IMG/VR virus record: IMGVR_UViG_3300035181_001402
Span: 1-64,000 of that record
Length of the DNA stretch: 64,000 bases
Reading direction: 5' to 3' (one strand)
Source: a virus
The position numbers were made by a program, and so were the translations under genes. The notes below the pieces were generated by a model, which searched no databases, had not been told where the DNA came from, and saw nothing but the letters and a program-made list of their open reading frames with translations. Below, one piece after another: positions 16,474 through 64,000 of this stretch. How positions within the stretch are numbered: the stretch's first letter is position 1; each line of letters starts with the position of its first letter.

Positions 16474-16649
16474 GCACTCAGGAAGTTCTCGTTCTTCTCC
16501 AGTTTCTTGATGACCTCTTCGAGCTGGGAGGCAAGATGGTCGCTGTGGCTCAGGGAAAGCATCCTGAGCTTGTGACAACCCCTCTTCCGGACCTCGCGGA
16601 GATGGACAAGGCACGAGAAGACGCCATCAAGCGTACTTCGGACACCTGA
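16470..16649 (+). CDS. Small acidic helical protein
   Basis: 59 residues from ATG 16470: MSTQEVLVLLQFLDDLFELGGKM, then a polar stretch with TPLPDLAEMDKARED. It overlaps the lipoprotein stop by four bases and its own stop overlaps the next ATG by one base, which argues for a real translated gene despite its size. Function unknown; possibly an accessory of the lysis cassette. Confidence 0.5.
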   Translation: MSTQEVLVLLQFLDDLFELGGKMVAVAQGKHPELVTTPLPDLAEMDKAREDAIKRTSDT

Positions 16650-18028
16650 TGAGTAACGAGGGCTCACATCAGGCGGACTTGAATCCGCCTCTCGGGAAGC
16701 CCGGGGGGCCCTCGTCAGTCGTGCAGCGCATCCTTCAAAGGGTGCAAAACCCCCATCTTCAGCATGACCTCGTTGACGAGGTTCAGCAGGGGGAGGACCT
16801 CTCGAACGCTGACGCCTCGAAGGTCTATCACCTGGACATCGAGCCTGGGATCGGCCTGATCAAGCGGATCCAGATCACAGCGCACGCCCAATACCGGATG
16901 GATCTCCGAGGGGTGTCTGTCCAGGATGTCCAGGATGTCCTCAAACACTTCGTGACACAGCTCAACAACTGGAAAGCGTTGAAGAGCCCTGCCTACGAGC
17001 GGATGCTCTCGACGCTCGGCTCAGGGGACAAGATCGAATGGGTGAACCCGAAAACGGGGCTCAAGATCGTGTTCGCCACCATCGGACCTGGCACCGTGGA
17101 CCTCATCACCACCTTCAACAAGTGGCACAACAGCTCTGTATTCTCCAACGGAGTAGACATGTACTCGGATCTCGTTCTTCGCGTTGCAGCTCGGTTTATG
17201 GACCCTTCAATTGTCACAGCCGATGACAGAGGGGTGTGGCTCCCGGACATGCTCGGCTCGAAGGAGAACCTCGTGAAAGAGATCCTCCTCGCCGCGAAGA
17301 AGATGGCAGCGGCCGACACCTTCAAGAAGGGGGACATCAAGAGCATCTGCGGCGGGGTCTTGTACTTCCTCATGGAGGAAAAGGCTGGGAAGGCCGTTGC
17401 GGACAAGCTCTGGAATCTCCTCGATTCCTCCGCGGGGCTCGATGTCGGAGCTGCGATCAACAAGCTCGTCTGGCGAATCACGCCCCACCTTGACCATGGG
17501 GACAAGGGGAAGGTTCAGGCGGCAGCCGTTGGGATCTCGCTTCTCCAGCGCTCCAAGCAGCCGACCAAGGCTCAGCGAGCCAACGTCATCTTGAGGGACG
17601 CGCTCAAGTCCTCGATCGACATGGCCGGGCCTCCTGAAGAGAAAGGGAAGACCCCGACGGCGAAGGACACCTTCCTCCAGATGGTGAAGGACCAGATTCC
17701 GTTCGCGAAGACGCTCTACGGCCAGATCAAGGATCCCGGCGTGGCTGCGCTGGTTGTTTCGTACGCTCTCGACCAGGCGAACTACAGCGAGGCGTCCTCT
17801 TTCGCCGAGTCTACCCTCAAGTCGATCGCCACCAAGAACCCTCCCGACGATGTCGTGCAGGACTTCGGAGGGCAGGTCTCGGATGAGATCAGCTTCGCTG
17901 TCTACGAGACGGCGGCCTTTGGTGTGGCTCTGATGCAAGAAGCCGGTCAAGCGTCCGCAGCGCGAACCCTCTTCACCGGCTTCCTTCGCATCATCGGGCC
18001 CGCCATCGGACCCGGCAACCTGCTCTAG
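16649..18028 (+). CDS. Two-module protein: DUF4258-like domain plus a tagged helical module
   Basis: 459 residues as read. Residues about 70-165 (ITAHAQYRMDLRGVS, then GLKIVFATIGPGTVDLITTF) resemble DUF4258, a small RelE/BrnT-like fold. At Met 171 (ATG 17159) a new module begins MYSDLVLRVAARF, carrying the recurring RVxARF peptide seen at the N-terminus of other proteins here, followed by about 275 mostly helical residues. A TAG in the +1 frame (17154-17156) sits just before that ATG. The ORF may therefore be two genes joined by a one-base insertion rather than a true fusion. Confidence 0.55.
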   Translation: MSNEGSHQADLNPPLGKPGGPSSVVQRILQRVQNPHLQHDLVDEVQQGEDLSNADASKVYHLDIEPGIGLIKRIQITAHAQYRMDLRGVSVQDVQDVLKHFVTQLNNWKALKSPAYERMLSTLGSGDKIEWVNPKTGLKIVFATIGPGTVDLITTFNKWHNSSVFSNGVDMYSDLVLRVAARFMDPSIVTADDRGVWLPDMLGSKENLVKEILLAAKKMAAADTFKKGDIKSICGGVLYFLMEEKAGKAVADKLWNLLDSSAGLDVGAAINKLVWRITPHLDHGDKGKVQAAAVGISLLQRSKQPTKAQRANVILRDALKSSIDMAGPPEEKGKTPTAKDTFLQMVKDQIPFAKTLYGQIKDPGVAALVVSYALDQANYSEASSFAESTLKSIATKNPPDDVVQDFGGQVSDEISFAVYETAAFGVALMQEAGQASAARTLFTGFLRIIGPAIGPGNLL

Positions 18029-18315
18029 GACTCAATGATGCACTCGCGGACGAACGCGAGGAGCTTGGGGTCACCCTTTCCGAGGAACTCCCACTGGGGG
18101 TGAATCACAGGATCCCACCCTTCCAGCATACTTTCCGCAGTGTCCTTGAAGAAGAGGACCATGTCTTCACGGAAGGTGCTGCTCCTCTTGGAGCCCCACA
18201 CTCCTTCCCCCATGATAATCCGAACTCGAAATTCGCCGTCTTGACCGTTGTCGGTCAACTGGACGAAGTTGTCATCGACTAGAACCCAGCCCGTTTCGTT
18301 GGTGATGTTCAGCAT
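18025..18315 (-). CDS. Small leftward protein, unknown
   Basis: 96 residues starting at 18315 on the minus strand (MLNITNETGWVLVDDNF). The middle reads GEFRVRIIMGEGVWGSKR and the C-terminus has a helix (DPKLLAFVRECIIES). No family recognised. A GTTGAT-N17-TGTAGG promoter ends 6 bases before the ATG. The 3' end meets the end of the rightward gene tail-to-tail with a four-base overlap. Confidence 0.6.
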   Translation of the reverse strand: MLNITNETGWVLVDDNFVQLTDNGQDGEFRVRIIMGEGVWGSKRSSTFREDMVLFFKDTAESMLEGWDPVIHPQWEFLGKGDPKLLAFVRECIIES

Positions 18316-18321
18316 GGGGGT

Positions 18322-18350
18322 CCTACAGACCGGACCCCCCGCCGATCAAC
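18322..18350 (-). promoter_or_regulatory. Leftward promoter GTTGAT-N17-TGTAGG
   Basis: The minus strand reads GTTGAT (18350-18345), a 17-base spacer, then TGTAGG (18327-18322). The ATG follows 6 bases later at 18315. Six leftward genes share this arrangement with an identical spacer length. Confidence 0.7.
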
Positions 18351-18846
18351 CTAGAAGAGCGAGAGCTGCTCGGCGATCTTCTCGACGGGCTTCGTCTCCC
18401 AGACGAAGCCCGTCCACCTTCCGGCCGATCTTGGCCCCGTTCGCCCTCCAGTAGGCGACGAACATCTCGACGCCTACAAAATCGAGGCCCTTCCAGGCGG
18501 GCTGCGCGATCTTCAGCGCAATCAAGTCGGCATACCCGCCCTCGAAGCCCCTTGCCATGTAGTCGGGGATGTCGGGGCAGGCCTTGACCTCGTCCTTCGG
18601 GATCCGCGTGTCGAGCATGGGGGCAGCGAAAACAGCCCGAACGATGTTGTCGTTGTCGAGGTTGTCGACGTCGTCGACAACGTTCTCCAGCTCCCTCTCG
18701 AAGTCGTCGTGGGGGATGGATACCGTGATCGGTCCGTACCCCTCACGAGGGCCGGGGTAGCCCGTCAGCCCGCTCAGACCTCGCGTGAGGACAAGGTAGC
18801 GATCATCGCGGACAGCTTTGGGCGGCAGCTTCTTCTTGGTAGCCAT
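18346..18846 (-). CDS. Leftward hypothetical protein
   Basis: 166 residues, beginning with a basic MATKKKLPPKAVRDDRY, then a negatively charged region with ELENVVDDVDNLDNDN and a C-terminal basic helix. No known domain. It has its own GTTGAT-N17-TGTAGG promoter 6 bases upstream of the ATG, so it is probably an independent transcription unit, plausibly early and host-directed. Confidence 0.6.
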   Translation of the reverse strand: MATKKKLPPKAVRDDRYLVLTRGLSGLTGYPGPREGYGPITVSIPHDDFERELENVVDDVDNLDNDNIVRAVFAAPMLDTRIPKDEVKACPDIPDYMARGFEGGYADLIALKIAQPAWKGLDFVGVEMFVAYWRANGAKIGRKVDGLRLGDEARREDRRAALALLG

Positions 18847-18852
18847 GGGGGT

Positions 18853-18881
18853 CCTACAAGATGAAAGGGGGAGGGATCAAC
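18853..18881 (-). promoter_or_regulatory. Leftward promoter GTTGAT-N17-TGTAGG
   Basis: GTTGAT (18881-18876), a 17-base spacer and TGTAGG (18858-18853). The ATG at 18846 is 6 bases downstream, so transcription would begin at or next to the start codon. Confidence 0.7.
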
Positions 18882-18885
18882 CCCT

Positions 18886-19275
18886 TCAGTGAATGATGGC
18901 AGAAACCTCGTGTTCGTGCTCGACTTGGAAGCGAGCACGAACCTTTGCGATCGTGACCCGGAGGCCAGCATCCGCGATCGGAATCAGCTCATCCCCCACC
19001 TGGCGGAAGCGGGTCGGGACGCAGGTCACCTTCCAGCCGGGGCCCACCACGGATTCGACCCCGAGTCCTTCGAGGACTGAGATGACGAAGCTCCGAGCTT
19101 GGATCTCGGCCGCGCAGGGGGTTGCCCCACGTCGTTCCTTGCGCTCGCGGGCCAGCCTGACCAGGGGAGCACACAGCTCTTCCAGGACAGCCTGAGAGAC
19201 CTTCAGGGTCGGAGAAGCCAGCGGAGGCACCTCCGGCCACTCCGCGTCGATGACCTCGGTGTCGATGCTTTTCAT
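18886..19275 (-). CDS. Leftward hypothetical protein
   Basis: 129 residues from ATG 19275. A central helix carries LCAPLVRLARERKERRG, followed by IQARSFVISVLEGLGVES and a C-terminal strand pair (GLRVTIAKVRARFQVEHEH). KVRARF resembles the tag found elsewhere but lies inside a strand and is probably coincidental. It has its own leftward promoter and is divergent from the SNF2-type helicase gene. Confidence 0.6.
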   Translation of the reverse strand: MKSIDTEVIDAEWPEVPPLASPTLKVSQAVLEELCAPLVRLARERKERRGATPCAAEIQARSFVISVLEGLGVESVVGPGWKVTCVPTRFRQVGDELIPIADAGLRVTIAKVRARFQVEHEHEVSAIIH

Positions 19276-19283
19276 ATTTTGGC

Positions 19284-19312
19284 CCTACAGCGATGGTTCC
19301 CCCCGGATCAAC
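19284..19312 (-). promoter_or_regulatory. Leftward promoter GTTGAT-N17-TGTAGG
   Basis: GTTGAT (19312-19307), 17 bases, TGTAGG (19289-19284), with the ATG 8 bases on at 19275. It stands back-to-back with the rightward GGTGTA signal at 19341, making a divergent promoter region. Confidence 0.7.
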
Positions 19313-19340
19313 CGCTCTCCGATTTCCTACACCAAAGCTC

Positions 19341-19346
19341 GGTGTA
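19341..19346 (+). promoter_or_regulatory. GGTGTA start-proximal signal
   Basis: GGTGTA lies 11 bases before the helicase ATG at 19358. There is no GTTGAT-like element 17 bases upstream, unlike the leftward set. Confidence 0.5.
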
Positions 19347-19357
19347 GACAGGACTCA

Positions 19358-21118
19358 ATGACGACCGCTCTATCGCCGCAAGACACGACAGCTTACGAAA
19401 CGCTGAAGAAGGTTCGGGCTTCAACGACTGTTGCACTGAAGCCCACCCCGATGCTCAGGGCGAGCATCCTCGGCCTTGACGGGCAAGCGCAGGACTTCCG
19501 CCTACGGTACTACCAGGTTCAGGGGGTCTTCCACCTTCTGACCATGACCCGGATGATCTTGGGGGATGGGACTGGGCTCGGGAAGACGATCCAGGTGATC
19601 GCCGCCCTCTGCTACCTACGTCCCCGGGAGCCCAACAACCGGGTCATCATCGTCACCCCCAAGAGCGTCCTACGCCAGTGGGGAGAAGAGATCGAACGCT
19701 TCACGACGGGCGTCAAGTGCTACGTCGTCAGCGGGTCTCTCGAAGAACGCAAAGCGGTCTACGAGAAGTGGGCCAAAGCACCCCTCGGAGAGGACGCTCC
19801 TCTCTCTGTGCTCATCGTCAACTACGCGATCATCGTTCGGGACTGGGACCAGGGGAGCCAGTCTATCCCTGGGAAGACCCCCAAGGAGAAGCCGACCGTG
19901 TTGCCTGGCTATCTTGACGGGCTCACTCGGGGGATGGATCTGGTCGTCATCTACGATGAGGCGACGGCATTCAAGAACCACTCTACCAAGACGTGGCAGA
20001 CGTGTCGCTACCTCTCGGATCGAGCGAAGAGGTGCTACGGGCTCACGGCGACGCTCCTCAAGAACAACTTGATGGAGGGCTTCTCGATCTTCAAGGTGAT
20101 CGTTCCTCGTCTCTTTGCGACGAAGACCGCCTTCCTGGCATCCTTCTGTATCGTCGAGCAGAAGAGGGTGGCAGGGAACCGGAAGATCCCCATGGTCGTG
20201 GGGTACAAGAACCTGGAGGTGTTCCGGGAGAGGATCGACCCCTACTTCCTTGGGCGTCCGAAGCACGCGGTGTCTGCCGAGCTACCCGTGCTCACCACGA
20301 AGCAGATCATCGTGGAACTGTCGGCCGCAGAAGACCAGAAGTACCAGGAGGCCCTCTCGGGTGTCCTCGAAATGGGGGACGGGTCCACCAAGGACTACGA
20401 GGAGCACAAGGCCTTCGTCTCGCTCTGCTACTGCCAACAGGTCGTCGACTCTCTCACCTTGCTCAAGTACAAGGCGGGGGACGAGCTGCTCCCTGGGGGT
20501 CATGAACGGCTCGACGCCGAGATCGCCAGCCACACGATCGCGAAGCTCGGAAGCAAGGAGCAGGCGTTCCAGGACCTCATCCTTGACGAGCTGGATGGCG
20601 AGAAGGTCATCGTCTACACCCGCTTCGAGTCTCTTGTGGGGCGCCTACAGGCCATTCTCAAGGAGAAGGGGATCAAGAGCGGGCGCATCACGGGGAAGGA
20701 CTCGGACTCGGCTCGCCGGGACCATCAAAAGGAGTTCCAGAACCTCGACTCGGACATGAAGGTCATCTTCATCACGGACGCCGGAAGCGAGGCCATCAAC
20801 CTCCAGGCGGCCAGCGCTCTCGTGTTCTACGATGCCCCCTGGAGCTGGGGGAACTACGTGCAGACCCTTGGGAGGCCGATTCGCATCGGGAGCCCTCACC
20901 CCAATGTGTGCGCCTACCACATCGTGGCGGTTCGTCCCAAGGCGTCGGGGAAGAACAAGAAGACGATCGACCACCACATCCTGACCCTCCTCATGGGCAA
21001 GAAGAACCTCGTCGACAAGGTTCTCGGGGAGGCCGCCGTTGGGGCCCTCGACTTCAAGAAGGACGGCGTTGGGGCGGGGACGAAGGAGCTGCTCAAGCAA
21101 ATGCGTTCCGGCGAATGA
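19358..21118 (+). CDS. SNF2-type superfamily 2 helicase
   Basis: 586 residues from ATG 19358. Motif I is GDGTGLGKT (residues 69-77). Motif II reads YDEAT, motif III GLTATLLKN, and the C-terminal lobe has TDAGSEAINLQ and QTLGRPIRIGS (motifs V and VI). The RYYQVQGV segment ahead of motif I fits the Q-motif region of SNF2 proteins. Such phage enzymes remodel or translocate on duplex DNA during replication, recombination or transcription; the exact task cannot be read here. It heads the rightward replication block behind a GGTGTA signal. Confidence 0.85.
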   Translation: MTTALSPQDTTAYETLKKVRASTTVALKPTPMLRASILGLDGQAQDFRLRYYQVQGVFHLLTMTRMILGDGTGLGKTIQVIAALCYLRPREPNNRVIIVTPKSVLRQWGEEIERFTTGVKCYVVSGSLEERKAVYEKWAKAPLGEDAPLSVLIVNYAIIVRDWDQGSQSIPGKTPKEKPTVLPGYLDGLTRGMDLVVIYDEATAFKNHSTKTWQTCRYLSDRAKRCYGLTATLLKNNLMEGFSIFKVIVPRLFATKTAFLASFCIVEQKRVAGNRKIPMVVGYKNLEVFRERIDPYFLGRPKHAVSAELPVLTTKQIIVELSAAEDQKYQEALSGVLEMGDGSTKDYEEHKAFVSLCYCQQVVDSLTLLKYKAGDELLPGGHERLDAEIASHTIAKLGSKEQAFQDLILDELDGEKVIVYTRFESLVGRLQAILKEKGIKSGRITGKDSDSARRDHQKEFQNLDSDMKVIFITDAGSEAINLQAASALVFYDAPWSWGNYVQTLGRPIRIGSPHPNVCAYHIVAVRPKASGKNKKTIDHHILTLLMGKKNLVDKVLGEAAVGALDFKKDGVGAGTKELLKQMRSGE

Positions 21119-21119
21119 C

Positions 21120-21125: not shown

Positions 21126-21135
21126 GGTCAAGCAC

Positions 21136-24217: not shown

Positions 24218-24448
24218 ATGCCCCAAATCGAGACGGAAGAAAAGTTTCGGGTTCACGCGCTCCTGGTTGTGCGGGTGGTGCATAATCTCTTCCCTCATCT
24301 GTCTCAAGAGGGGAAAGAACAGACGGCCATGGCCCTTTTGGACCTGGAGCCGGAAGACCTGGAGCCCATGACTCGACATGGGTATGCGTTGTCTTGTGCG
24401 ATTCCGACCCATAAGACAGTGTGGTATTACCTGGAGGACGACCTGTGA
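24218..24448 (+). CDS. Small hypothetical protein
   Basis: 76 residues (MPQIETEEKFRVHALLVVRVVHNLF, then EDLEPMTRHGYALSCAIP). No family recognised. It begins one base after the helicase stop and overlaps the next start by four bases (GTGA), so it is translated within the replication operon. Confidence 0.5.
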   Translation: MPQIETEEKFRVHALLVVRVVHNLFPHLSQEGKEQTAMALLDLEPEDLEPMTRHGYALSCAIPTHKTVWYYLEDDL

Positions 24449-24615
24449 ACGAACGCACATCTGACGATTGGGAGGCGGATTGGGCCTGGCTCCGACCTGC
24501 GACCTTGAAGGTCTATGAGATGTTCGCGCTTCTCGTTCAGGAGAAGCAACGAGAACGAGCGAACCTCCCGGTCTTTTGGACTCACCTTTTGGAGGATGAC
24601 GACGATGGCATTTGA
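24445..24615 (+). CDS. Small hypothetical protein
   Basis: 56 residues from GTG 24445, chosen because it forms a GTGA overlap with the preceding stop. Sequence VNERTSDDWEADWAWLRPATLKVYEMF, then an acidic end LLEDDDDGI. No domain recognised. The 3' end overlaps the next gene by 11 bases. Confidence 0.45.
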   Translation: MNERTSDDWEADWAWLRPATLKVYEMFALLVQEKQRERANLPVFWTHLLEDDDDGI

Positions 24616-38720: not shown

Positions 38721-39245
38721 GTGGAAGATAGCTCGATTGCTGTGGCGCTGATCGCAGCCATGGACCCCAGCGGAGTCATTGGCATCGACGGGAAGATGCC
38801 CTGGAAGTACCCGGCAGATTTCCGACGGTTCAAGCAGGTCACCATGGGTGGCGTCCTCGTCATGGGGAGCAAGACCTTCCGGTCTCTCCCGGGGCTGCTC
38901 CATGGAAGGACGCACTTCGTCGTGAGCCGTGGCGACATGAGGGCGGACAAAGTACAACCTGATCTTGTCTGCGAGAGCCTGGAGTCGGCCATCCTGACGG
39001 CGGAGAACATCGCAGACACCCACGCGATCTGGATCGCCGGGGGAGCACATATCTACCGGCTGGCACTGGAGGGACGTCGGGTGGACTTCATCGATCTCAC
39101 GATCGTCCCTCCTGTGGACATCCCGCCCGGCGCTTCTGTGACCCGATTTCCCACTGATCTTCTTTCGGACTGGGAGATGGTGAGAGAGAGTGCCCTCACC
39201 GATGACCCCCGACTTCGCGTCCAACGCTACGAACATCGCCCGTAG
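38721..39245 (+). CDS. folA: Dihydrofolate reductase
   Basis: 174 residues from GTG 38721, with AAGGAGAGG 7 bases upstream; ATG 38634 is an alternative but lies inside the preceding gene. DHFR landmarks are clear: IAVALIAAMDPSGVIGIDGK, MPWKYPADFRRFK, VLVMGSKTFRSLPG, HFVVSR and IWIAGGAHIY. It regenerates tetrahydrofolate consumed by the phage ThyA. The 3' end overlaps the next gene by 44 bases. Confidence 0.9.
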   Translation: MEDSSIAVALIAAMDPSGVIGIDGKMPWKYPADFRRFKQVTMGGVLVMGSKTFRSLPGLLHGRTHFVVSRGDMRADKVQPDLVCESLESAILTAENIADTHAIWIAGGAHIYRLALEGRRVDFIDLTIVPPVDIPPGASVTRFPTDLLSDWEMVRESALTDDPRLRVQRYEHRP

Positions 39246-40473
39246 GGTTTACCGTCGATTCATGGCTGACGCCATTGGCGATCCGGTTGAACTCCTGGCT
39301 CAGTTCAAAAAATGGGTCTCTCTATTCGCTGAAAACGGAGACTTTGCCATGACGTCTTCGACCTTGTTGCGGGAGGCGCTTGACAAGTTGCCCCTCAACG
39401 AGGACCGAGACAGATACAGAGCCCCCATGCCCCCCAATCTGGAGCCTTACGCTAAAGGCATCCGAGACATCGTGTCTACGATGGGCATGGGGAATTGGTA
39501 CAAGAGAGCCAAGCCTTTGGCGACCTCTCTCTTCTTCTCTCTCCTACAACAGTACGCAATCCTCCCTGCCCTTTCAAAGGGGGTAGAAGCAGCCACTCGA
39601 TTCTGGGATAAGACCCGTACAACGGTTCGTCTCAAGAGCGATTACAAGTTCGGGTGGGCGGCGTGGATCGAGTACCTCGATGCCTATGTTGAGGTGATGG
39701 ACCTTCTAAACGCTCAAGTGGTACTTGGGGAGAAAGTCCTTGCCACGGCGAAGCTTCACAGTGACCCTGATGTCGCAGCGACTACCCGGATCCCTGTGGG
39801 TAGTTTCACGCTGGTCAACACAGGCAACTTCGACGAGAAGGTGATGGCCACCAACAAAGAGGTCGTCGCCAAAGCTGAGCGGGCTCTCCGTGAGATCGGA
39901 CTTGCAAAGGTGTGCTACGGGGACATACTGGTCACGAAGACCATCAGCCAAAGCTCTCGCATCATGGCGTTCTATCTCATCAAGAATGACGAGATGTTCG
40001 TCAGGGCCAATATTCGGCCTGGGTGGGATACGGTTCAGACCGTCTGTCACGAGCTGACGCACCGGCTCATTCACAAGTTCCTAGCCTCGAAAAAGGCTGA
40101 GATCCGGAACCTTTTTCGGACAGTTCAGAACCACCAAAATGACATTCAGATCCCCTTGGCCCTTTACCCCAACGCAGGGGATAAATTGGTGTTCAAGGGG
40201 GAGAACTTGGTCGTCACGGGTGTCGACTTCATGAAGTCGAAGGTGAATCTGGCCATCGCAGACGACCCCAAGTCCTTGCTCTCGATGAAGATTGATGCTT
40301 GGTGTCGGGTCAACAACATTCAAGTTGTCCCCCCGGAAGAATTCAAGGGGTTTGTGACGCAATACGCCGCAACGGACCCCGACGAAAACTTCTGTGAGAT
40401 GGTGTCTTACTACGCACTGGGCAAGCTGCCCAAAGTTCAAATCCCTTTGATTGAAGCGATCCTCAATGGATGA
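39202..40473 (+). CDS. HExxH metalloprotease-like protein with N-terminal tag
   Basis: 423 residues from ATG 39202. It opens with the shared peptide (IARRVYRRFMADA, residues 12-24). A zinc-protease core is visible: CHELTHRLIHKF, with His 283, Glu 284 and His 287, and a likely third ligand Glu 399 in NFCEMVSYYALG, the gluzincin arrangement. The first 200 residues are mainly helical. A tagged protease is a good candidate for a virion-carried enzyme acting on the host or during capsid maturation; this is inference. Confidence 0.65.
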   Translation: MTPDFASNATNIARRVYRRFMADAIGDPVELLAQFKKWVSLFAENGDFAMTSSTLLREALDKLPLNEDRDRYRAPMPPNLEPYAKGIRDIVSTMGMGNWYKRAKPLATSLFFSLLQQYAILPALSKGVEAATRFWDKTRTTVRLKSDYKFGWAAWIEYLDAYVEVMDLLNAQVVLGEKVLATAKLHSDPDVAATTRIPVGSFTLVNTGNFDEKVMATNKEVVAKAERALREIGLAKVCYGDILVTKTISQSSRIMAFYLIKNDEMFVRANIRPGWDTVQTVCHELTHRLIHKFLASKKAEIRNLFRTVQNHQNDIQIPLALYPNAGDKLVFKGENLVVTGVDFMKSKVNLAIADDPKSLLSMKIDAWCRVNNIQVVPPEEFKGFVTQYAATDPDENFCEMVSYYALGKLPKVQIPLIEAILNG

Positions 40474-45796: not shown

Positions 45797-46317
45797 ATGG
45801 CGGCTGTGGCAGGGATCGTCTGGCATTTGAGGTTTTCCGAAGGTTTCAAGAGTCTCGCTTGAAGCCCACCTGCATTTTCCGTATCGGGAAGCCTTCCAGC
45901 GCCAAGCCCTACGCTCAGGTCAACATCACGGCGTCTGTGATCTTGAACCAAAAAACACCCTTGGGTAAGGACCCATCAGGTGGGGGGAATGGGGTTACTC
46001 GCCCTCAGTTCGATCCGGAGATCCCGGAGCAGGTGGCTGCATTGGCCGCAACTGTTCGGGACTCCCTGAAGAAGTTCTTCGAGGAGCATGGGGTTGAGGG
46101 TTCCGTCACCTACTGCGAACCCGTCGCCAGCTTGAAGAAGTTCCTTGGGTCGCTGCACGCGGGGAATTACACGGACCCGACCAACTTTCTGGGAGCGCAC
46201 TTCAAGGTCCCCTACGGAGCTGGTCAGAAGAAACGAGTGGATCACATCTCTCGGGACATCGCTCGACTGGCCAGTGCATTCGAGAGCGACATGGATGTCG
46301 AAGTGAAACAGGATTGA
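45797..46317 (+). CDS. Tagged hypothetical protein broken by a one-base frame change
   Basis: The obvious frame starts only at TTG 45859. A better reading begins at ATG 45797 (MAAVAG) and, with the GGG at 45812-45814 read as GGGG, continues DRLAFEVFRRFQESRLKPTC into the long frame, about 174 residues. This restores an N-terminal VFRRF matching the shared tag. The body has VTRPQFDPEIPEQVAALAATV and SRDIARLASAFESDMDVEV; no known domain. It opens a block of tagged genes (45.8-48.8 kb). Confidence 0.5.
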
Positions 46318-46340: not shown

Positions 46341-46691
46341 ATGGATCTGAACAAGCGCGTGGTGGCTCGGTTTTTGGAGGCAGCGGCAGCCAAGCAACGC
46401 ACCTACCCGCAAGCTCAAGCCGAGATATTCGCCTTCCTCAAGACGAAGGGTTGGAAGGTCACGGAAGGGCTCAAGGTGCCCCACGCGACCTCACCCGACG
46501 GCAAGTTCAAGCTCTGGTTCAAGGCGCAGTCTGTGTACTTCACCCTGCCCAACGACCGCGGGCGGCATGAGTACGGGGACGCTCGAACGATCAACTACGA
46601 TCACGACATTCGCAAGATGTCGGTCGAGGAGTTCCTGGAGATGGTCCTTCACTCGAAGGAGTACCGGGAAAAGAATCCCCTCCCCCGGTAG
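46341..46691 (+). CDS. Tagged small protein
   Basis: 116 residues from ATG 46341. The first 11 residues are MDLNKRVVARF, a clean copy of the shared tag, then an Ala-rich helix (LEAAAAKQRTYPQAQAEIFAFL). The rest (GWKVTEGLKVPHATSPDGKF, then VYFTLPNDRG) looks like a small alpha/beta domain. No family recognised. Confidence 0.6.
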   Translation: MDLNKRVVARFLEAAAAKQRTYPQAQAEIFAFLKTKGWKVTEGLKVPHATSPDGKFKLWFKAQSVYFTLPNDRGRHEYGDARTINYDHDIRKMSVEEFLEMVLHSKEYREKNPLPR

Positions 46692-46718: not shown

Positions 46719-47510
46719 GTGAGTGACCTCGTCCATCGTGTTGCGACCCGCTATGCAGCGGTGGTCATCCCCTTCAAACCCAAACCTGGGGTCCCGACGG
46801 CCACCATTGGGGGTCGGAAGTACGTGCTGAGCACGTTCCGTGGAGAGGGGATGGACGTCTCGGAAAAGGTCGATGAGGGCGGCCCGGGGACGGGACATGC
46901 TCGCTACATTCACCTCCCGAGCAACACCCCCTGGAGATACCTGTGGGTGTTCGATGCCGAGAAGAAGATCGTGGCGATGTGGCAGGTCTCTGAGGGGGAC
47001 CTGAAGATCCATGGTCCCTCGGGACACTTCGCTTCGATGATCGTGCATCTCGAAAAGAAGGGCCAGCTCAACCGGGTCACTCACGAAGAGTACCACGACC
47101 TCGAAAAGAGGATGGAGCGGGTCTACGATGAGACCGTGTCTGGGCTCAAGACCTTTTTCGAGCAGAACGACAGCGACTTCCAAAAGAAGGTCAATGCAGG
47201 CGTTCAGGAGTACTACGCCAAGTACGTCAAGCCGAAGGTGGACCGGGCCATCTCTGATGTGTTGAACGGGGCCATTCCTTTGGGGTTCAAGCCCTACGAT
47301 AGCCCCCATCGATCCACACAGAGCCAAGCTATCGGCTACAACGTGGGTATGGTCCTCAAGAGGGAGTTGGACCTCGCGAAGGTTGAGGAAGCTCTGGTCC
47401 ACATGGGGATCAACGTGCATTCCCCCCACGAAGACAACCAGGCGACCTACTGGGCCATCGGCGACGTCAAAGATACCGTCCTTGACCGACTTTCCACCGA
47501 GTACGCCTGA
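46719..47510 (+). CDS. Tagged hypothetical protein
   Basis: 263 residues from GTG 46719, the start that places the tag MSDLVHRVATRYAA at the N-terminus like its neighbours. The body has GGRKYVLSTFRGEGMDV, a central helical part (EYHDLEKRMERVYDETVSGL) and a C-terminal VEEALVHMGINVHSP. No enzyme motif. The stop overlaps the next ATG by one base. Confidence 0.55.
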   Translation: MSDLVHRVATRYAAVVIPFKPKPGVPTATIGGRKYVLSTFRGEGMDVSEKVDEGGPGTGHARYIHLPSNTPWRYLWVFDAEKKIVAMWQVSEGDLKIHGPSGHFASMIVHLEKKGQLNRVTHEEYHDLEKRMERVYDETVSGLKTFFEQNDSDFQKKVNAGVQEYYAKYVKPKVDRAISDVLNGAIPLGFKPYDSPHRSTQSQAIGYNVGMVLKRELDLAKVEEALVHMGINVHSPHEDNQATYWAIGDVKDTVLDRLSTEYA

Positions 47511-48769
47511 TGCTACCCATCGTCTATCGTGTCGCGCGGAGCTTTCAAGCATCTTGGGCTTCAGCCTTGCCCGAGGATTTTCGTCAGGCCATGTCGAAGA
47601 TCCTCGCGTGCCTGCACTCTCTCCAAGACACGGGGTTCACTGGGATTCAGGAAACGGATGGGGCCAGTTACCACAAGGGCATGGCCAATTACGCTCAGAT
47701 TAACGAGCTGAGCGCGTTCGTCATCTACGACCTCAGTGATTTGGGGAAGGTCTGGATGAAGACCCCCATTTTGGACATGATGCGGAAGAAATGGCCCCAT
47801 GACCCCAACAAGATCCTGACGACGTTGGGACCGCATGCCTGGCAGCTCGCTGAAAAAGAAGCGAAGCAACTGGCCCAGTTGATCCCCTCGGGGAACGATT
47901 GGAAAGAGCTGCGAGATCGCTACGACCGACGACTGATGCTCCCTACTTTTCGACCGAGGCCTCACATGACGCAATCCCGCACACTTCTCCGCGTTGTCGC
48001 TCGTTTCCAGATGCAGCTTGCGATGGAGCACTCATCGCCCGAGGAAATGAAAGAGTACCTGCACGAGCACCCTCAAGCCGACCCTGCGAATCACACCGTC
48101 ACCAAAAAGGAAGATCATGGGGGTGGCGGGGAGCATGAGCATGATGCACCCAAGAAGTCCTGGAAGGAGCGCCTGCAAGGACTCGGGGCCAAAGCGAAGA
48201 AGTTCTACGAGGATGCGCCCGCGGCCGTCAAGCAGTTCTTCACCGACGATGCCTATCGTCGAACGGCCCTCATGGGGGCCCACAAGAAGCTGATGGACGC
48301 CCCGCACAACGTCGTGCAGCATGCCATCACCACCGTGAAGAACGAGGTGAAGGAGTACAAGGAAGCGGCAGCCGGGGTGAAGGCTGTCATCAAGGGGGGT
48401 TCGATGACCCCCGAGCAGAAGCACGCTTTCAAGACATTGGCCAAGCACATGGCCATCACCGCTGCGGCAACGGCTCTGACAGTCAGTGGTGGGCCTCTCG
48501 CTCTTGCAGGGGCCTTCGGAAAGACCCTCACCAAGAACCTGGCAGCACGAGCGGCAGCCGACATCCTGGGACACATCGACGGGCTCAGCGAGTACATCGA
48601 GATTGGGGAGGGCATTCACAAGCATGTTCACCACTTCCTCGCATCGGATGAGGACGCCAAGGTGGACGAGGGGATCGCCAAGTTCGTCATGGCCAAGGTC
48701 GCCAAGCAGATCCAGGACCTCGACATGGACGCGATCGAGGCGGCCCTCAAGGAAATGGACTCAGAGTAA
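47510..48769 (+). CDS. Doubly tagged ORF: two modules, possibly two genes
   Basis: 419 residues as read. Module one (from ATG 47510) starts MLPIVYRVARSF. A second copy of the tag, RTLLRVVARF, appears at residues 158-167 after ATG 47936 and 47966, followed by a His/Glu-rich linker, amphipathic helices (KSWKERLQGLGAKAKKFYED) and a hydrophobic Ala/Gly segment (ITAAATALTVSGGPLALAGAF), perhaps membrane-active. A TGATG in the +1 frame at 47934-47938 resembles the TGATGCTACC junction at 47507. The ORF may therefore be two tagged genes fused by an indel. Confidence 0.55.
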   Translation: MLPIVYRVARSFQASWASALPEDFRQAMSKILACLHSLQDTGFTGIQETDGASYHKGMANYAQINELSAFVIYDLSDLGKVWMKTPILDMMRKKWPHDPNKILTTLGPHAWQLAEKEAKQLAQLIPSGNDWKELRDRYDRRLMLPTFRPRPHMTQSRTLLRVVARFQMQLAMEHSSPEEMKEYLHEHPQADPANHTVTKKEDHGGGGEHEHDAPKKSWKERLQGLGAKAKKFYEDAPAAVKQFFTDDAYRRTALMGAHKKLMDAPHNVVQHAITTVKNEVKEYKEAAAGVKAVIKGGSMTPEQKHAFKTLAKHMAITAAATALTVSGGPLALAGAFGKTLTKNLAARAAADILGHIDGLSEYIEIGEGIHKHVHHFLASDEDAKVDEGIAKFVMAKVAKQIQDLDMDAIEAALKEMDSE

Positions 48770-52695: not shown

Positions 52696-53067
52696 ATGCC
52701 CTCCGCTCTTCTCGCTCAACACCTCGCCCAACGCCTTCTTCGCAGTCTGGCTCGAAGGACTGTCTACCTCCCGAGAAGTCGAGAGGAGGGGGACATCGGT
52801 CCCTACCATCGCATGCTCGGGTTGGAAGACGACATCGAGAAGTCCGCTCACGCCGAGTGGGTGGGGCACCTCAAGACCTGGGATCTCTCGGATCCTCCTC
52901 AAAAAGCCATCCTGACGCACGTCATAGAGAATTCCTTCCGGAATGCGCTTTACGACGTGCGTCGGTCGTTCGAAGATGACGCAGCAACGGCGTTCCCCAT
53001 CCTCAAGAAGTTCGAGGAGCAGTTCACGCCTCAAGACCTCCTGATTCCGGCAGTGGTGGAAGCATGA
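52696..53067 (+). CDS. Hypothetical helical protein
   Basis: 123 residues. The basic N-terminus (HLAQRLLRSLARRTVYLP) is followed by helices (LEDDIEKSAHAEWVGHLKTW, then SFRNALYDVRRSFEDD). No family recognised. It overlaps the next start by four bases. Confidence 0.5.
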   Translation: MPSALLAQHLAQRLLRSLARRTVYLPRSREEGDIGPYHRMLGLEDDIEKSAHAEWVGHLKTWDLSDPPQKAILTHVIENSFRNALYDVRRSFEDDAATAFPILKKFEEQFTPQDLLIPAVVEA

Positions 53068-53582
53068 AGCTCGGAGACCTTCTTCTGCACGATGGGCAGC
53101 ACTGGATTGTCCGCAAGTACGACCTGAAGCGTACGCACATGTCGGAGCTTCTCGCAGCCTCCGGGCAGGTGAAGGAGATTCGCTTCGATGCGGATCTCAA
53201 GGGAGAGGCGACGGTTCTCTCCAACCCGCAGACGGAGTGGCCGTTCGTGGTCATGCAGTCCAGGCCCAGCTTGGGCCGGTTGCAGTACATCGCTCGCATC
53301 ATCGGGCCTCTGGCAACTCCGACGGAAGAACCCTTGAGGTTGTACGTTGACTGGGTGGCGAGCGACCCCGCTCGAATGGGTGGGCCCGTGTTCTTCTCGC
53401 CCATGTTGGGGCTGCAATCTGGGAACCTCCTCGTGGCCGTTCACGAGAAAGGCCGCTCGCGGATCGACATCACCGCGCAATTCAAGACGGTCAAGCAACG
53501 AATCGCCCACGTCGCCGTCAAGCCGAAACCCGAGAAGAACGCCTATACCCATCTTCTCGATGACGCCGAGTTCGACGAATGA
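53064..53582 (+). CDS. Hypothetical protein
   Basis: 172 residues, strand-rich (MKLGDLLLHDGQHWIVRKYD, then PLRLYVDWVASDPAR). No known domain. ATGA overlaps at both ends place it firmly in a translated cluster. Confidence 0.5.
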   Translation: MKLGDLLLHDGQHWIVRKYDLKRTHMSELLAASGQVKEIRFDADLKGEATVLSNPQTEWPFVVMQSRPSLGRLQYIARIIGPLATPTEEPLRLYVDWVASDPARMGGPVFFSPMLGLQSGNLLVAVHEKGRSRIDITAQFKTVKQRIAHVAVKPKPEKNAYTHLLDDAEFDE

Positions 53583-58817: not shown

Positions 58818-58851
58818 TCGAAACTCCTCTGTGAGATGGGGCAAAGCCCGT

Positions 58852-59519: not shown

Positions 59520-59525
59520 GGGAGT

Positions 59526-59554
59526 CCTACAGGAGGAAGGGATCCGGGATCAAC
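59526..59554 (-). promoter_or_regulatory. Leftward promoter GTTGAT-N17-TGTAGG
   Basis: GTTGAT (59554-59549), 17 bases, TGTAGG (59531-59526), ATG 6 bases on at 59519. The GTTGAT overlaps the restored stop codon of the upstream leftward gene. Confidence 0.7.
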
Positions 59555-59899
59555 CCTTCGGCTTCTTCGTCATGATCATGGCGAGCTGAGCCGCGAACGC
59601 GACATCGGCCATGGTCGGGCCGGGAAGACCTTTCGCGATCTTCTTCAGCTCCTTCTTGACAGCCGTGGCCGCTCGCTTGGCGGGGGCCACCTTCGCCCAG
59701 CCGACCAGAGGATCCCCACGGTCTGACCCGCGAAGTCCTTCGGGTTGGCCAGAAAACAGGCCCGGAAAAGCCGACCGTGAGTGTCGTTCTCCGTGTAGGA
59801 CGCCTTCAGGGGCTTGTTCTCGAACTCGTCGTATTCCTCAACGAGGTAGACACGGAAAGCGTGGGGGTCGTCCCATTCGGCATACGCGTCGATAATCAT
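59550..59899 (-). CDS. Leftward protein broken by a one-base frame change
   Basis: From ATG 59899 the frame reads MIIDAYAEWDDPHAFRVYLV, then ANPKDFAGQTVGI; beyond about 59711 that frame becomes Arg/Pro-rich noise. One frame back the sequence is sound: LVGWAKVAPAKRAATAVKKE, then LKKIAKGLPGPTMAD, ending at TGA 59552-59550. One extra C on the minus strand (GG at 59710-59711) joins them as VGIPLVGWAKV, about 116 residues. The basic C-terminus suggests nucleic-acid contact. Confidence 0.5.
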
Positions 59900-59905
59900 G
59901 TCCCT

Positions 59906-59934
59906 ACTACACACCGAGAACCTTGGGGATCAAC
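59906..59934 (-). promoter_or_regulatory. Leftward promoter GTTGAT-N17-TGTAGT
   Basis: GTTGAT (59934-59929), 17 bases, TGTAGT (59911-59906), ATG 6 bases on at 59899. The minus strand also reads GGTGTG just upstream, resembling the rightward signal. Confidence 0.65.
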
Positions 59935-59968
59935 CGGAAAGTATTGATAGGGCCCTCTCCGTAGATAC

Positions 59969-60976
59969 ATGGCTCCGGCTTCCTCAAAAGTGGCGCAAAG
60001 ATACGCGGGGACTCTCGCTACGGACGGGGCTGTTCGAGAGGCCGCTCTTGCGGTGTTCGAGGCTCTTCCGAGCGACTTGAAGCACGGCGTGGAGACTTTC
60101 CTTCACGGGGTGTTCGGAGGCTCTGCGCCGGCCCTGGAAGCCCATGCTGACGAGCTGTACGACCTCTACACGCCAGTCCGCAACCTGGTCCACAGCAAGC
60201 ATGGGGCAGAGGTCACGCTCTACCGAGGGGAGCCCGTGGACAAGCCGGCGATCGTCCGGAAGTTCCTCTCCTGGACGCCGTCCTTCAAGATGGCAACACA
60301 CTTCGCCCAGATGCGAGGGTATGAGGTCGTGACGGCCAGCGTCCGGGTAGCTGACGTGGTCGCTGTCTTCGTTTCCCCCCACGACGCGAAGTACATCGAG
60401 TACCTGGTTCGCTTTCGAAAGAGCCACCACGAGAAGGGACAGCAACTCCCTCTCAAGGGCTACGTCGAGTTCGACATCCCTTTTGGCGGATGGTCTGTGG
60501 AACTCGCACAGACCATGGTCAAGAGGCTCGAACACGAGCTGGCGGCAATGGGTGGGTCCATCCTTCAGACGAACATCAGCGAAGAATACGAGATGGCAAC
60601 TGCTTACGTCTTGGTCCCAGCGAACGTGAAGATCGACGAGAACGATTCAACTCGGATTGGGGAGTTCGAGGCGCAGTTTCTCGAAGTCTACTCGCACCAC
60701 ATGACCGCCTCGAAAAGCGTGTCCGCTCGGGGATTCTTCGATGTGGGGGACCGGATTCTGTACGGCAAGTACAAGAACAAGAAGGGCAGGATCGTCTCCG
60801 TGGGGCTCGACGTCAAGGGGAACCCCATCATCGAGATTGAGCCCGTCCCCAAGGGCCGGAAGAAGAACCAAATCATCGGCCTCTACAAGATCTGGCACGA
60901 CCCTCCGCCGGCTCTTGCTCAGAAGGTGCTCGCTCGTTACACCCAGGCCGCCATGCTCGACGACGGGGAAGACTGA
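59969..60976 (+). CDS. ADP-ribosyltransferase-like protein with N- and C-terminal tags
   Basis: 335 residues. It starts MAPASSKVAQRYAG (tag). Residues about 55-150 have an ART layout: VTLYRGE (Arg 86), FLSWTPSFKMATHFA (Ser 101 in the STS position) and AKYIEYLVRF with Glu 144, although the first Glu of the usual ExE is Tyr. A second domain (GDRILYGKYKNKKGRIVSVG) resembles a KOW-type barrel. The end reads QKVLARYTQAAM, another tag copy. It may be a virion-delivered enzyme that modifies host proteins with ADP-ribose; the family call is tentative. Confidence 0.5.
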   Translation: MAPASSKVAQRYAGTLATDGAVREAALAVFEALPSDLKHGVETFLHGVFGGSAPALEAHADELYDLYTPVRNLVHSKHGAEVTLYRGEPVDKPAIVRKFLSWTPSFKMATHFAQMRGYEVVTASVRVADVVAVFVSPHDAKYIEYLVRFRKSHHEKGQQLPLKGYVEFDIPFGGWSVELAQTMVKRLEHELAAMGGSILQTNISEEYEMATAYVLVPANVKIDENDSTRIGEFEAQFLEVYSHHMTASKSVSARGFFDVGDRILYGKYKNKKGRIVSVGLDVKGNPIIEIEPVPKGRKKNQIIGLYKIWHDPPPALAQKVLARYTQAAMLDDGED

Positions 60977-60979
60977 ACC

Positions 60980-62857
60980 ATGTCTCTATCCTCTCGTGTA
61001 GTTTCCCGATTCCTTGGGGCGAAGAAGGCTCCTGACCCGGAGTTCTTCCTTTCGAGCAAGTTCTTCAAAGAGAAGAAGGCCGAATTGCGGAAGCGCCTCA
61101 AGACTCCCCTGGGGAACTCGAATAGCCCCGAGGACGTGGCGTACAAGGTCATGACGGACTTGAAGACCTTCTTCCTGGAATTCCAGGAAGACTTCAACAG
61201 CATCATCACGTTCGCCCCGGCCCGGGAGTACATCAACACTCGGTACAAGATCATGGCCGAGAACCTCATGGTGGCTCAGAAGTCAGCGGAGATGTTGACA
61301 TCTGTCCCTACTCCGGCTCCGGGGGATATCGAGGGGTATCTCAAGTGGACGATACGTATTGACATCGAGTACGCCTTCAAAGACCAGGTCTCCACGCTGC
61401 TCGACTACATCAAGTACTACTGGAGGGTGGACCTACCGAAGCGGGACAGCCTTGTCCAGAAAGCCCTCAAGGGCATCACAACCCCCGAGCTGATCGCCGC
61501 CTTCAAGAACGGCATGGCCGAGTCTTTTGGAGACGACGCGGACAGCAAGCGGCGTTGGGAGTACCTGACTCAGTCGGGGTTCACCGCTGCCAGCAAGAAG
61601 CTTCTGCTCAAGTCTCCCTCTGGGTTCGGGGGATGGATCATGGATTGGGTGGACGTCGTTCAAAAGGACCTCATCGAGAAGTTCTCAGCACAAGCCCAAG
61701 AAGCGAACCCTACTCCGACAGTCACCGACTTTGACATGTACGGGATGCGGGTCATCATCGAGGACTCGAAGGTCACCCCTGACGACACCCGTCTCTACAT
61801 CAGATACCTCGACGAGACCTACAACCGCCTTCGAGCCAAGAAGCTTGAGTCTGCGTGGTATGGTGTCGTCTTCATTCAATGTGAGTCGTGCGGTGGGGTC
61901 AATCAAAATGGGGCGGACCTGGGAGTAGCCGGTAGATACAATATCGGCAAAGACGTCGTCATGATTTACGCCCGCCCTAGCGAACACATCGTGGGCTATA
62001 TGGCCCACGAGCTGGGCCATAGGTACTGGTTCCATCAGCTCTCCTCAAGACAGCGAGAGTTCTTTGAGAGCCTCGTCCGGGTGCATAAGAACAAGAAGCC
62101 CGAGAAGACGAGGGACCCCTACATCATCCCTCCCGAGAAGATCAAGAAGGGCAAAAACCAGATTCTCGATCTCCTCGGGGCGATTGCAGAGCCCTTGGGG
62201 AACATGACGGACTCCAAATTGGGGTATCAGGAGACTCTCGCCAAGTTCGGGCCCCCTCTGGAAGAGGCTGCGAAGAAGCATCGGGATGAACTTTCCAGTG
62301 TGTTCACGAACACCACCTGGAAGCGAGGGACCCCCGAGATCGAGAAGCTGTACTGGGATGCCTTCGCCAAGAGCAAGGCTCTTTACGTGTACTTCAAAGC
62401 GGCACCCAAGCTGGCCCTGAAGCTCACCAAGTACCCTGACGAGGAGGCAAAGAACACTGCGTTCAAGGCTATCTTGGCGGCTTGGGCCAAAAAGGGCATT
62501 GCTCTCATCGACGAATCGATGAAGACCTCCTTCGCATTCATCGACGAATCGATCAAGGACTCGAACGCGAAGGAGCTTCAAGAAACCAACATCGAGCTTC
62601 GCACCAAGGCCTGGGAAGACGAGTGGGATGCTGATCCTCGTGAGGTCCTCCCTGTCTCTGATTATGGCCGGAGCAACATTGGCGAAGCATGGGCCGAGGT
62701 GTTTCGGTCCTACGTCATGAACTGGGACATGTCTCGTGACCAGCTCGAAACCTTCAAGCTCATCCTGAAGCGATCCTCCCTCGTGACCGCTGAGCAAGTC
62801 CTCGCTCGGTTCCAGCTTCTTGGGGGAGATTTCTCTTGTACGTCGCCCCTGATGTAG
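60980..62857 (+). CDS. HExxH metalloprotease-like protein with N- and C-terminal tags
   Basis: 625 residues, three bases after the previous stop. The N-terminus MSLSSRVVSRFLGAKK and C-terminus TAEQVLARFQLLGG both carry the tag. The zinc motif is MAHELGHRYWFH with His 343, Glu 344 and His 347; a likely third ligand Glu lies in NIGEAWAEVFRSYVM, as in gluzincins. Flanking regions are long and helical. A second tagged protease (39202) lies elsewhere in the window. Capsid maturation or host-directed proteolysis are the candidate roles. Confidence 0.65.
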   Translation: MSLSSRVVSRFLGAKKAPDPEFFLSSKFFKEKKAELRKRLKTPLGNSNSPEDVAYKVMTDLKTFFLEFQEDFNSIITFAPAREYINTRYKIMAENLMVAQKSAEMLTSVPTPAPGDIEGYLKWTIRIDIEYAFKDQVSTLLDYIKYYWRVDLPKRDSLVQKALKGITTPELIAAFKNGMAESFGDDADSKRRWEYLTQSGFTAASKKLLLKSPSGFGGWIMDWVDVVQKDLIEKFSAQAQEANPTPTVTDFDMYGMRVIIEDSKVTPDDTRLYIRYLDETYNRLRAKKLESAWYGVVFIQCESCGGVNQNGADLGVAGRYNIGKDVVMIYARPSEHIVGYMAHELGHRYWFHQLSSRQREFFESLVRVHKNKKPEKTRDPYIIPPEKIKKGKNQILDLLGAIAEPLGNMTDSKLGYQETLAKFGPPLEEAAKKHRDELSSVFTNTTWKRGTPEIEKLYWDAFAKSKALYVYFKAAPKLALKLTKYPDEEAKNTAFKAILAAWAKKGIALIDESMKTSFAFIDESIKDSNAKELQETNIELRTKAWEDEWDADPREVLPVSDYGRSNIGEAWAEVFRSYVMNWDMSRDQLETFKLILKRSSLVTAEQVLARFQLLGGDFSCTSPLM

Positions 62858-62862
62858 AACCC

Positions 62863-64000
62863 ATGCACAGCCGGTCCCTCCGAGTAGCTGCTCAACATGT
62901 CGTCTCCCGCCGGGAGGCCGCTCTACGATCCGTCGTGGCAAGGGGAAGCTCCGGGGGGATGCCTCTACCGCCGGAGATGGCGGACCACCCTGCTCTGACC
63001 GCGGGCCTGACGGAGATTTACTCCAACCCCAAAGAGGTTGGAGGCTACCTCGGGGTCATCGACGGAGGCTCTTGGATCGTCTTCGTGGGAGTGTATGGGA
63101 AGTCCGAGCTGTGGACATCCCGCGACCCCAAGGGAGGCACCATCGGGAATCCCTACGTGTTCCAGCGGGACGACATCTCTTCGGCGTCGACCGTGACCAT
63201 TCCCAACCCTGTGTTCCAGTTCTACTCCCCGATCGAACTCAAGATGATGGGTATCACCGAAAAAGTCGCGGCCCGCTACAAGAAGAAAAAGAAGGTCAAG
63301 ACTCAAGACGGCGAGGATATGACCGTCTACGAGTACTCCGACAAGCAGATCGCCAACCGGAACCGGGAGAAGGCGAAGCGAATCGAGAAGCTCCGGGGCA
63401 AGATCGACGACGTCCGCTCGAAGGCCAAGAAGGACCTGAAGTCGAGCGATCCCGAGAAGATGCTCACGGCCCTCGCCGTGATGCTGATGGATCACACGTT
63501 CGAGCGGGTCGGGAACGACGAGAGCGCGGACGACGGGCACTTCGGGGTCACGGGCTGGCAGAAGGACCACATCACCTTCAGCAAGGGCGGGGCGACCATC
63601 AAGTACGTCGGCAAGTCCGGCGTCAAGCACGTCAAGAAGGTGACCGACTCGACCATCACCAAGGCGCTCAAGGATGCCTGTGAGGCGGCCGAGAACGAGA
63701 CGTCCTGTATCTTCGAGTGGGACGGGGGCAAGGTCTCAGCCGAGAAGGTGAACGCCTACCTGAAGGAATTTGACATCTCGGCAAAGGACATCCGTGGGTT
63801 GCACGCGAACGTCGAGATGCAGGACCAGCTCAAGGCCTCCAGGAAGAAGGGCGGCAAGCTCCCCGAAGACCCCAAGAAGCGGGAGAAGCAGCTCAAGGAA
63901 GAGTTCAAGGAAGCCCTCGAAGTCACAGCGGAAGCCGTGGGCCACGAGCCTGCCACGCTGAAGAGCCAGTATCTCGTCCCCGGACTGGAGGACACATATC
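62863..64000 (+). CDS. Type IB DNA topoisomerase (3' truncated)
   Basis: 379 residues visible from ATG 62863; the frame runs off the right edge. All five catalytic residues of the poxvirus/bacterial type IB family are in order: Arg 215 (FERVGN), Lys 251 (YVGKSG), Arg 311 (KDIRGL), His 361 (VGHEP) and Tyr 370 (SQYLVP). NRNREKAKRIEKL before them fits the N-terminal linker. The first 100 residues are extra; they start SLRVAAQHVVSR, and EKVAARYKKKKK follows at residue 134, both tag-like. It relaxes supercoils through a 3'-phosphotyrosine link. Confidence 0.88.
   Translation, partial: MHSRSLRVAAQHVVSRREAALRSVVARGSSGGMPLPPEMADHPALTAGLTEIYSNPKEVGGYLGVIDGGSWIVFVGVYGKSELWTSRDPKGGTIGNPYVFQRDDISSASTVTIPNPVFQFYSPIELKMMGITEKVAARYKKKKKVKTQDGEDMTVYEYSDKQIANRNREKAKRIEKLRGKIDDVRSKAKKDLKSSDPEKMLTALAVMLMDHTFERVGNDESADDGHFGVTGWQKDHITFSKGGATIKYVGKSGVKHVKKVTDSTITKALKDACEAAENETSCIFEWDGGKVSAEKVNAYLKEFDISAKDIRGLHANVEMQDQLKASRKKGGKLPEDPKKREKQLKEEFKEALEVTAEAVGHEPATLKSQYLVPGLEDTY

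Follow-up and report, generated by a model that had tools for sequence, protein, structure and literature searches.

A short peptide shared by unrelated proteins of a huge-phage clade: a candidate address for loading cargo into the prohead

Tag copies in the window and related records

This work examines a short peptide, the tag, that recurs on unrelated proteins encoded in a 64,000-nucleotide stretch of viral DNA (referred to here as the window), which comprises bases 1 to 64,000 of the 128,096-base IMG/VR virus record IMGVR_UViG_3300035181_001402. With its flanks included, the tag has the consensus [LI][AS]xRVAAR[YF]LxA. An earlier note on this DNA had listed 13 copies of the peptide and suggested, by analogy with the N-terminal capsid-targeting sequences of T4 proteins, that it may be a signal for packaging proteins into the virion. 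All 13 copies were located, each on the plus strand, and three further copies lie beyond the window in the same record (RILARF at 64111, RVLARF at 64608, and RVLARF at 116187).

The first copy, RVAARF (17180 to 17197), is internal, at residue 178 of an open reading frame at 16649 to 18028, and falls at a module joint. Residues 6 to 195 of this frame match residues 749 to 938 of a 2,305-residue topoisomerase polyprotein from a related locus (L285), in which the shared module is followed by the tag and the topoisomerase. The second copy, RVYRRF (39244 to 39261), belongs to a 423-residue HExxH protein (39202 to 40473) that matches Pfam Peptidase_Mx1 at an E value of 1.2e-4, which is under the curated cutoff.

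A group of carriers follows between 45829 and 48769. EVFRRF (45829 to 45846, containing the VFRRF listed at 45832) stands ahead of a 152-residue gene call. The peptide is present, and its translation in this record is doubtful because no usual start codon precedes it: the open frame of the gene after 45784 (45797 to 45859) lacks an ATG, GTG, or TTG ahead of the tag, and the nearest call starts at the TTG at 45859, whereas the counterpart in the related contig G002 is ATG-started (MDRLALEVFRRF). Two proteins without an assigned function come next, one of 116 residues (46341 to 46691) with RVVARF at 46356 to 46373 and one of 263 residues (46719 to 47510) with RVATRY at 46737 to 46754; a 93% identical G002 orthologue of the latter keeps the tag as RVANRY. 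The 419-residue protein at 47510 to 48769 has two modules, with RVARSF (47528 to 47545) at its N terminus and RVVARF (47990 to 48007) at the joint.

The last three carriers are adjacent. A 335-residue protein with a KOW-like module (59969 to 60976) bears KVAQRY at 59987 to 60004 and a C-terminal KVLARY at 60923 to 60940. The ART label it had been given earlier was not confirmed: Pfam yielded no ART match and only KOW, at an E value of 0.073, and the AlphaFold model was left unused because its mean predicted local distance difference test score (pLDDT) was 49. A 625-residue HExxH protein (AHELGH; 60980 to 62857) carries RVVSRF at 60995 to 61012 and a C-terminal QVLARF at 62795 to 62812, and its 45% identical G002 orthologue keeps both. 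Finally, a type IB topoisomerase fusion starts at 62863 and runs past the window's end at 64000 to 64599. Its assignment is borne out by a Pfam Topoisom_I match (E value of 1.3e-25); the peptide at its start, RVAAQH (62881 to 62898), is in place but degenerate, KVAARY (63262 to 63279) occupies a joint, and the RILARF at 64111 lies outside the window.

A megablast search with the first 25 kb of the window matched nothing among 50,697 phage records. Relatives were found among viral contigs: G001 (350,469 bases), in which three compared proteins are 100% identical to those of our record; G002 (275 kb), in which the same three proteins share 46 to 98% identity; and G003 (437 kb), whose replicative helicase is 54% identical. 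Relatives of the helicase came from three viral contigs only, with none in genome contigs. LR745208.1 ("uncultured phage," 485 kb) was the only record in the phage collection with the topoisomerase, and its major head protein is 82% identical. At least 508 candidate relatives of this protein were counted. Among isolates, Tunturiibacter phage Tunturi_5 (48%) comes nearest, then Bacillus phage G (39%), with mycobacteriophages such as Myrna further off (28 to 30%); Tunturi_5, phage G, and Myrna served as control phages with related capsid proteins. The pooled set comprised G001 to G003, LR745208.1, and 152 of 176 fetched loci (designated by L numbers), loci shorter than 6 kb being dropped. Proteins of fewer than 45 residues, genes truncated at the end of a locus, and near-duplicates (judged by shared five-mers) were removed ahead of the counts. 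Gene starts were those of a simple gene caller, and wrong starts could hide or create tags.

Recurrence and position of the tag

The comparison with shuffled sequences proposed in the earlier note came out in the tag's favor, in the record and in its relatives alike. The strict motif was counted in 168 gene calls spanning the whole record: the first 25 residues held it 6 times (shuffled mean, 0.10; maximum, 2), the last 30 residues 3 times (0.10; maximum, 1), and the remaining positions 3 times (0.62; maximum, 3). A core motif, R[VI][AVL]x[RK][FY], counted in the first 30 residues, was found in 5/174 proteins of the record (shuffled mean, 0.08), 6/434 of G001 (0.16), 6/304 of G002 (0.14), 9/484 of G003 (0.20), and 3/547 of LR745208.1 (0.11). 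The control phages gave no core match (Tunturi_5, 0/319; phage G, 0/559; Myrna, 0/226). The pattern was loosened after the window had been seen, from the strict form to one allowing S, G, K, and N and then to one also allowing I at position 2; a looser pattern returned 7 matches in LR745208.1 against 1.44 shuffled (maximum, 6), which is marginal. An unbiased count of spaced four-residue patterns at N termini ranked RV..RF first in G001 (count, 7) and R.A.RY first in G003 (count, 8), and no form of the tag ranked first in G002 or LR745208.1.

Within the pooled set, 68 of 2,289 nonredundant proteins were tagged in their first 30 residues, compared to 7.4 in shuffles (standard deviation, 2.9; maximum, 16) and 8 when the motif was reversed. 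In the 867 proteins with at least 210 residues, consecutive 30-residue stretches counted from the N terminus held 36, 6, 11, 5, 1, and 8 matches, and C-terminal copies were likewise enriched (13/891 versus 2.75 shuffled; maximum, 7). The tag started at residues 5 to 7 in 38 of the 68 tagged proteins. Positions outside the search pattern were also conserved, with L or I at −3 in 35/67, A or S at −2 in 37/67, L at +6 in 22/68, and A or K at +8 in 44/68. When the tag was cut off, 119 tagged proteins fell into 42 families, some of which are chance matches.

The packaging signal suggested in the earlier note stands in part. There is strong support for a portable tag common to unrelated proteins; strictly N-terminal placement did not hold, as copies occur at either end and at module joints.

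Module joints, cargo, and head genes

As judged from relatives in which the same modules stand alone with the tag first or are fused with the tag between them, the internal copies sit at module joints, and placement at either end and at joints would explain the internal copies reported before. The type IB topoisomerase, for instance, opens with the tag in both G002 and G003; in the window, an extra module, itself headed by a degenerate tag, is fused ahead, and in LR745208.1 the same tag comes after another N-terminal module. G002 and G003 also have the second module of the 47510 protein as a separate protein that starts with the tag. For the KOW module of the 59969 protein, which could not be located in 18 of 56 loci and for which 6 near-duplicates were removed, a tag lay within 50 residues upstream in 6 of 32 distinct relatives by the strict pattern and 12 of 32 by the relaxed one (shuffled means, 0.36 and 0.94; maxima, 4 and 5). 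Several of these relatives have a second tag ahead of the next, varying module. Orthologues of the zincin (metalloprotease) encoded at 64596 are tagged N-terminally, C-terminally, at both ends (L305, L166, and L307), or not at all, and the order along one chain (L240) is NUDIX, tag, topoisomerase, tag, zincin, tag. In all, 55 proteins hold at least two copies, a figure that includes near-duplicates and has no shuffle control.

Tagged or tag-joined modules include topoisomerase IB, NUDIX, 2′-5′ RNA ligase, inorganic pyrophosphatase (InPase), RNA ligase, poly(A) polymerase head, GNAT, KOW, a Zeta-type kinase, and an Mx-type peptidase that is below its Pfam cutoff. For the HExxH proteins at 39202, 60980, and 64596, the motifs were recognized by eye, and two of the three have weak Pfam matches below the curated cutoffs. 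Several of these kinds (zincin, InPase, 2′-5′ RNA ligase, GNAT, and Zeta-type) match the effectors of polyvalent proteins, module combinations that Iyer and colleagues inferred to be virion-delivered (PMC5512222); the same group inferred packaging of ART and Nudix proteins (PMC9503650). Chains with two or more effector-type domains occur in relatives (L291, L287, L260, L240, and L263), while those of the window are mostly separate genes.

The zincin at record positions 64596 to 65861 (1596 to 2861 of L002), which combines a helical part at the N terminus with a catalytic part, is the one carrier that modeled well (mean pLDDT, 82). In this model, residues 1 to 4, 6 to 8, and 417 to 421 score below 50, as expected for detached ends, and the tag end is predicted to lie outside the fold. 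Foldseek returned nothing for the model at an E value of 0.001 or better. In structural alignment, the top row was a talin helix bundle (Z score, 10.1), on the helical part. The catalytic part aligned with the lethal-factor-type zincin 1j7n_A (Z score, 9.8; root mean square deviation [rmsd], 3.4; 156 residues) and with the Pro-Pro endopeptidase 9g3t_B (Z score, 9.1; rmsd, 3.4; 148 residues), a resemblance with middling Z scores that suggests a shared fold only.

Several tags are linked to head genes. PHROGs identified a head cluster in G001 that includes genes for the major head protein, the head maturation protease, the portal, and the terminase. Between the protease and the portal is a tagged 88-residue gene, and a tagged 133-residue gene is next but one to the terminase; 10 tagged proteins group with this 133-residue protein, and in some of its relatives the tag has decayed. 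In related contigs, the neighborhood of the major head protein gene had 19 tagged proteins among 334 nonredundant ones (shuffled mean, 1.12; maximum, 5). In LR745208.1, the topoisomerase gene itself is inside the head cluster, between the portal and the protease.

A large head-cluster protein, 988 residues long in G001, is encoded between the portal and the prohead protease. Its leader ends in ..PPRxDxRR..DPDLSLNYK.., and the tag comes next in 8 of 15 distinct members by the strict pattern and in 11 of 15 by the relaxed one (shuffled means, 0.13 and 0.93). The leader of ∼50 residues (ERLVRPxPKxKPPRxDxRR..DLSLNYK) is common to this protein and the topoisomerase polyproteins. It lies near the 5′ ends of L144, L160, L178, L193, L209, and others and is internal in L245, L266, L285, L287, and L298; inside the topoisomerase polyproteins, a tag accompanies it in 2 of 6 cases (strict) or 4 of 6 (relaxed). 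The N-terminal 100 residues of the L209 member matched nothing in the phage collection at E values up to 1. In addition, the second module of the 47510 protein matches residues 705 to 930 of the large head-cluster protein (L209 and L233; E value of 8e-56).

Proposed capsid loading, rival explanations, and known systems

Taken together, several indirect lines of evidence (the tags in the head cluster, the effector-type modules, and the tag end predicted outside the modeled fold) are best explained by virion delivery. On balance, we favor the reading that the tag is a portable address of this huge-phage clade, which would load cargo into the prohead for delivery with the DNA at the next infection. 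The tag would act as a short, detached, basic amphipathic helix that docks on part of the head as it assembles, be it the scaffold, the inner surface of the shell, or the large head-cluster protein, itself often tagged. Tagged enzymes (topoisomerase IB, zincins, KOW, NUDIX, RNA ligase, and acetyltransferase modules, among others) would be built into the prohead in this way and then be injected with the DNA. Docking, packaging, and injection are all steps that we infer from the sequences.

Several observations weigh against capsid loading. Many tagged genes are not part of the head cluster. The large head-cluster protein would belong to the virion by the position of its gene, and searches with it found nothing in Tunturi_5, phage G, or Myrna and no Pfam domain. 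Topoisomerase and capsid genes lie within about 20 kb of each other in 8 of 12 contigs holding both, compared to 4.4 expected, and are far apart in several long contigs; this linkage was set aside as proof, being too weak and only suggestive. No L-x-E or I-x-E, the T4-type cleavage site, is conserved after the tag in the pooled tagged proteins, though the protease of this clade may cut at another sequence. Copies at the C terminus and at joints set the tag apart from the T4 signal. LR745208.1, with few copies, belongs only weakly, and the codon agreement in G002, given below, is higher than codon usage predicts.

Of the alternatives, the strongest is that the tag addresses another site in the cell (the membrane, the nucleoid, or a phage-made compartment) or a single partner, from host or phage, common to the tagged proteins. 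Binding to a membrane or a partner would suit a detached basic amphipathic helix equally well, and the many carriers encoded outside the head cluster fit such a site; we nevertheless regard it as unlikely, given that head-cluster genes and the large head-cluster protein are tagged. Phages with a PhuZ-type nucleus usually, though not universally, have a tubulin gene. No match to the tubulin family PF00091 was found in the four records (0/4, possibly incomplete, and with no search for the phage-nucleus shell protein), as expected of phages without such a nucleus; 13 of 14 control genomes were positive.

The joint position in fusions, together with the frequent tagging of zincins, would also suit an element for polyprotein processing or linkage, in which the tag is a recognition site where the prohead protease, or a carried zincin, cuts modules apart, the terminal copies being leftovers. 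We consider this distinctly improbable as the whole account: stand-alone single-module proteins are tagged as often as a working N-terminal element predicts, at a fixed distance from the start, independent small genes keep their tags, and no cleavage consensus is evident. Processing may, however, work alongside an address role.

Given the extensive module shuffling around the tag, we also considered a DNA-level recombination seam that joins modules and is translated incidentally. Codon agreement at residues common to pairs of tags was compared with that expected from codon usage. It was below expectation in G001 (67 of 203 pairs versus 81.0), above it in G002 (48/96 versus 31.8), and in modest excess in G003 (110/277 versus 95.7) and LR745208.1 (27/64 versus 20.8), with many different codons in all four genomes. 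What is conserved is mainly the peptide and not the DNA, G002 departing upward; this comparison and the fixed place close to the protein start disfavor the seam and make it very improbable. Chance, by which a common helical pattern was merely picked out by eye, would account for a few N-terminal matches per genome with the looser pattern but is refuted for the whole set, almost beyond doubt, by the shuffles, the reversed motif, the inner windows, the control phages, and the conserved flanks that were not selected for.

Other terminal peptides recur in these genomes. An acidic C-terminal P-T-A-W-[ED]-x-L-L-x-D-D is found on many unrelated proteins, among them those at 24218 to 24448, 24445 to 24615, and 53064 to 53582 of the window and at 85044 to 85370, 100673 to 101185, and 101237 to 101812 of the record. 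It marks 21 of 174 proteins of the record (2.79 shuffled), 28/434 of G001 (5.99), 21/304 of G002 (4.76), and 17/484 of G003 (6.14), with background counts in LR745208.1 (7/547; 6.18 shuffled). LR745208.1 has a different tag, of the LRSKLIRLAHENPALRPHLLPLLKEAG type, on 8 gene calls, one of them internal (for example, record positions 398171 to 398575, which are 8171 to 8575 of L096, and 351543 to 351824, which are 543 to 824 of L094). By eye, this tag resembles the C terminus of the 988-residue head-cluster protein of G001 (KNPAMRPHIRPILQTIKNLG). In phage G (L120 to L143), 16 of 559 gene calls carry an N-terminal MKRLxKK (shuffled mean, 0.23), several of these proteins having an HGTS-type start that resembles ART proteins by eye, and a C-terminal WKENDRYLxKI is largely limited to one gene array at 352 to 369 kb, whose members are possibly paralogues. 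The accessible text of the phage G tail paper mentions virion mass spectra and names no tagged gene.

A wider reading, which we put forward only tentatively, is that huge phages run a written sorting code, in which lineage-specific terminal peptides mark large sets of unrelated proteins. RVAAR[YF]L, at either terminus, would stand for the head and the C-terminal PTAW[ED]xLLxDD for another destination, with the LIRLAHENPALRPHLLPLL type in LR745208.1 and the MKRLxKK type in phage G. A new gene would join the injected arsenal by gaining a tag, and relatives would fuse genes tag by tag into polyproteins.

If capsid loading is correct, one short pattern would reveal the injected protein arsenal of an uncultured huge-phage clade whose genes are mostly unannotated, and a small portable tag would be at hand for loading enzymes into very large capsids. 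The tag would work like a known kind of signal, with another sequence and with placement at either end and at polyprotein joints; in open-licence papers, the string RVAARY was absent, and no paper naming or describing this peptide was found. The closest parallel is the capsid targeting sequence (CTS) of T4, which targets internal proteins and Alt to the prohead and is able to bring in foreign proteins as well (PMC7697877 and PMC5694885). Both are short N-terminal peptides common to several unrelated proteins. They appear to differ in sequence, and they differ in the C-terminal and joint copies and the many more carriers found here; no T4-type cleavage site was seen after the tag; packaging is here suggested by sequence, and the tag would be a second solution to the problem that the T4 CTS solves. 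Giant phages of the SPN3US and phiKZ type carry many head-borne proteins with N-terminal extensions proposed to target them. The propeptides of their ejection proteins are mostly longer than 100 residues, however, with no common short motif described in the accessible text (PMC5694885). Polyvalent proteins, in turn, chain metallopeptidase, InPase, 2H-type RNA ligase, GNAT, and Zeta-type modules that are inferred to enter with the DNA, and the accessible text describes no common short tag for them (PMC5512222). In the phages studied here, topoisomerase IB is a usual module, and the modules of the window are mostly separate genes with their own tags, which, if the capsid-loading reading is true, would suggest that polyvalent proteins are assembled module by module, each carrying its own address.

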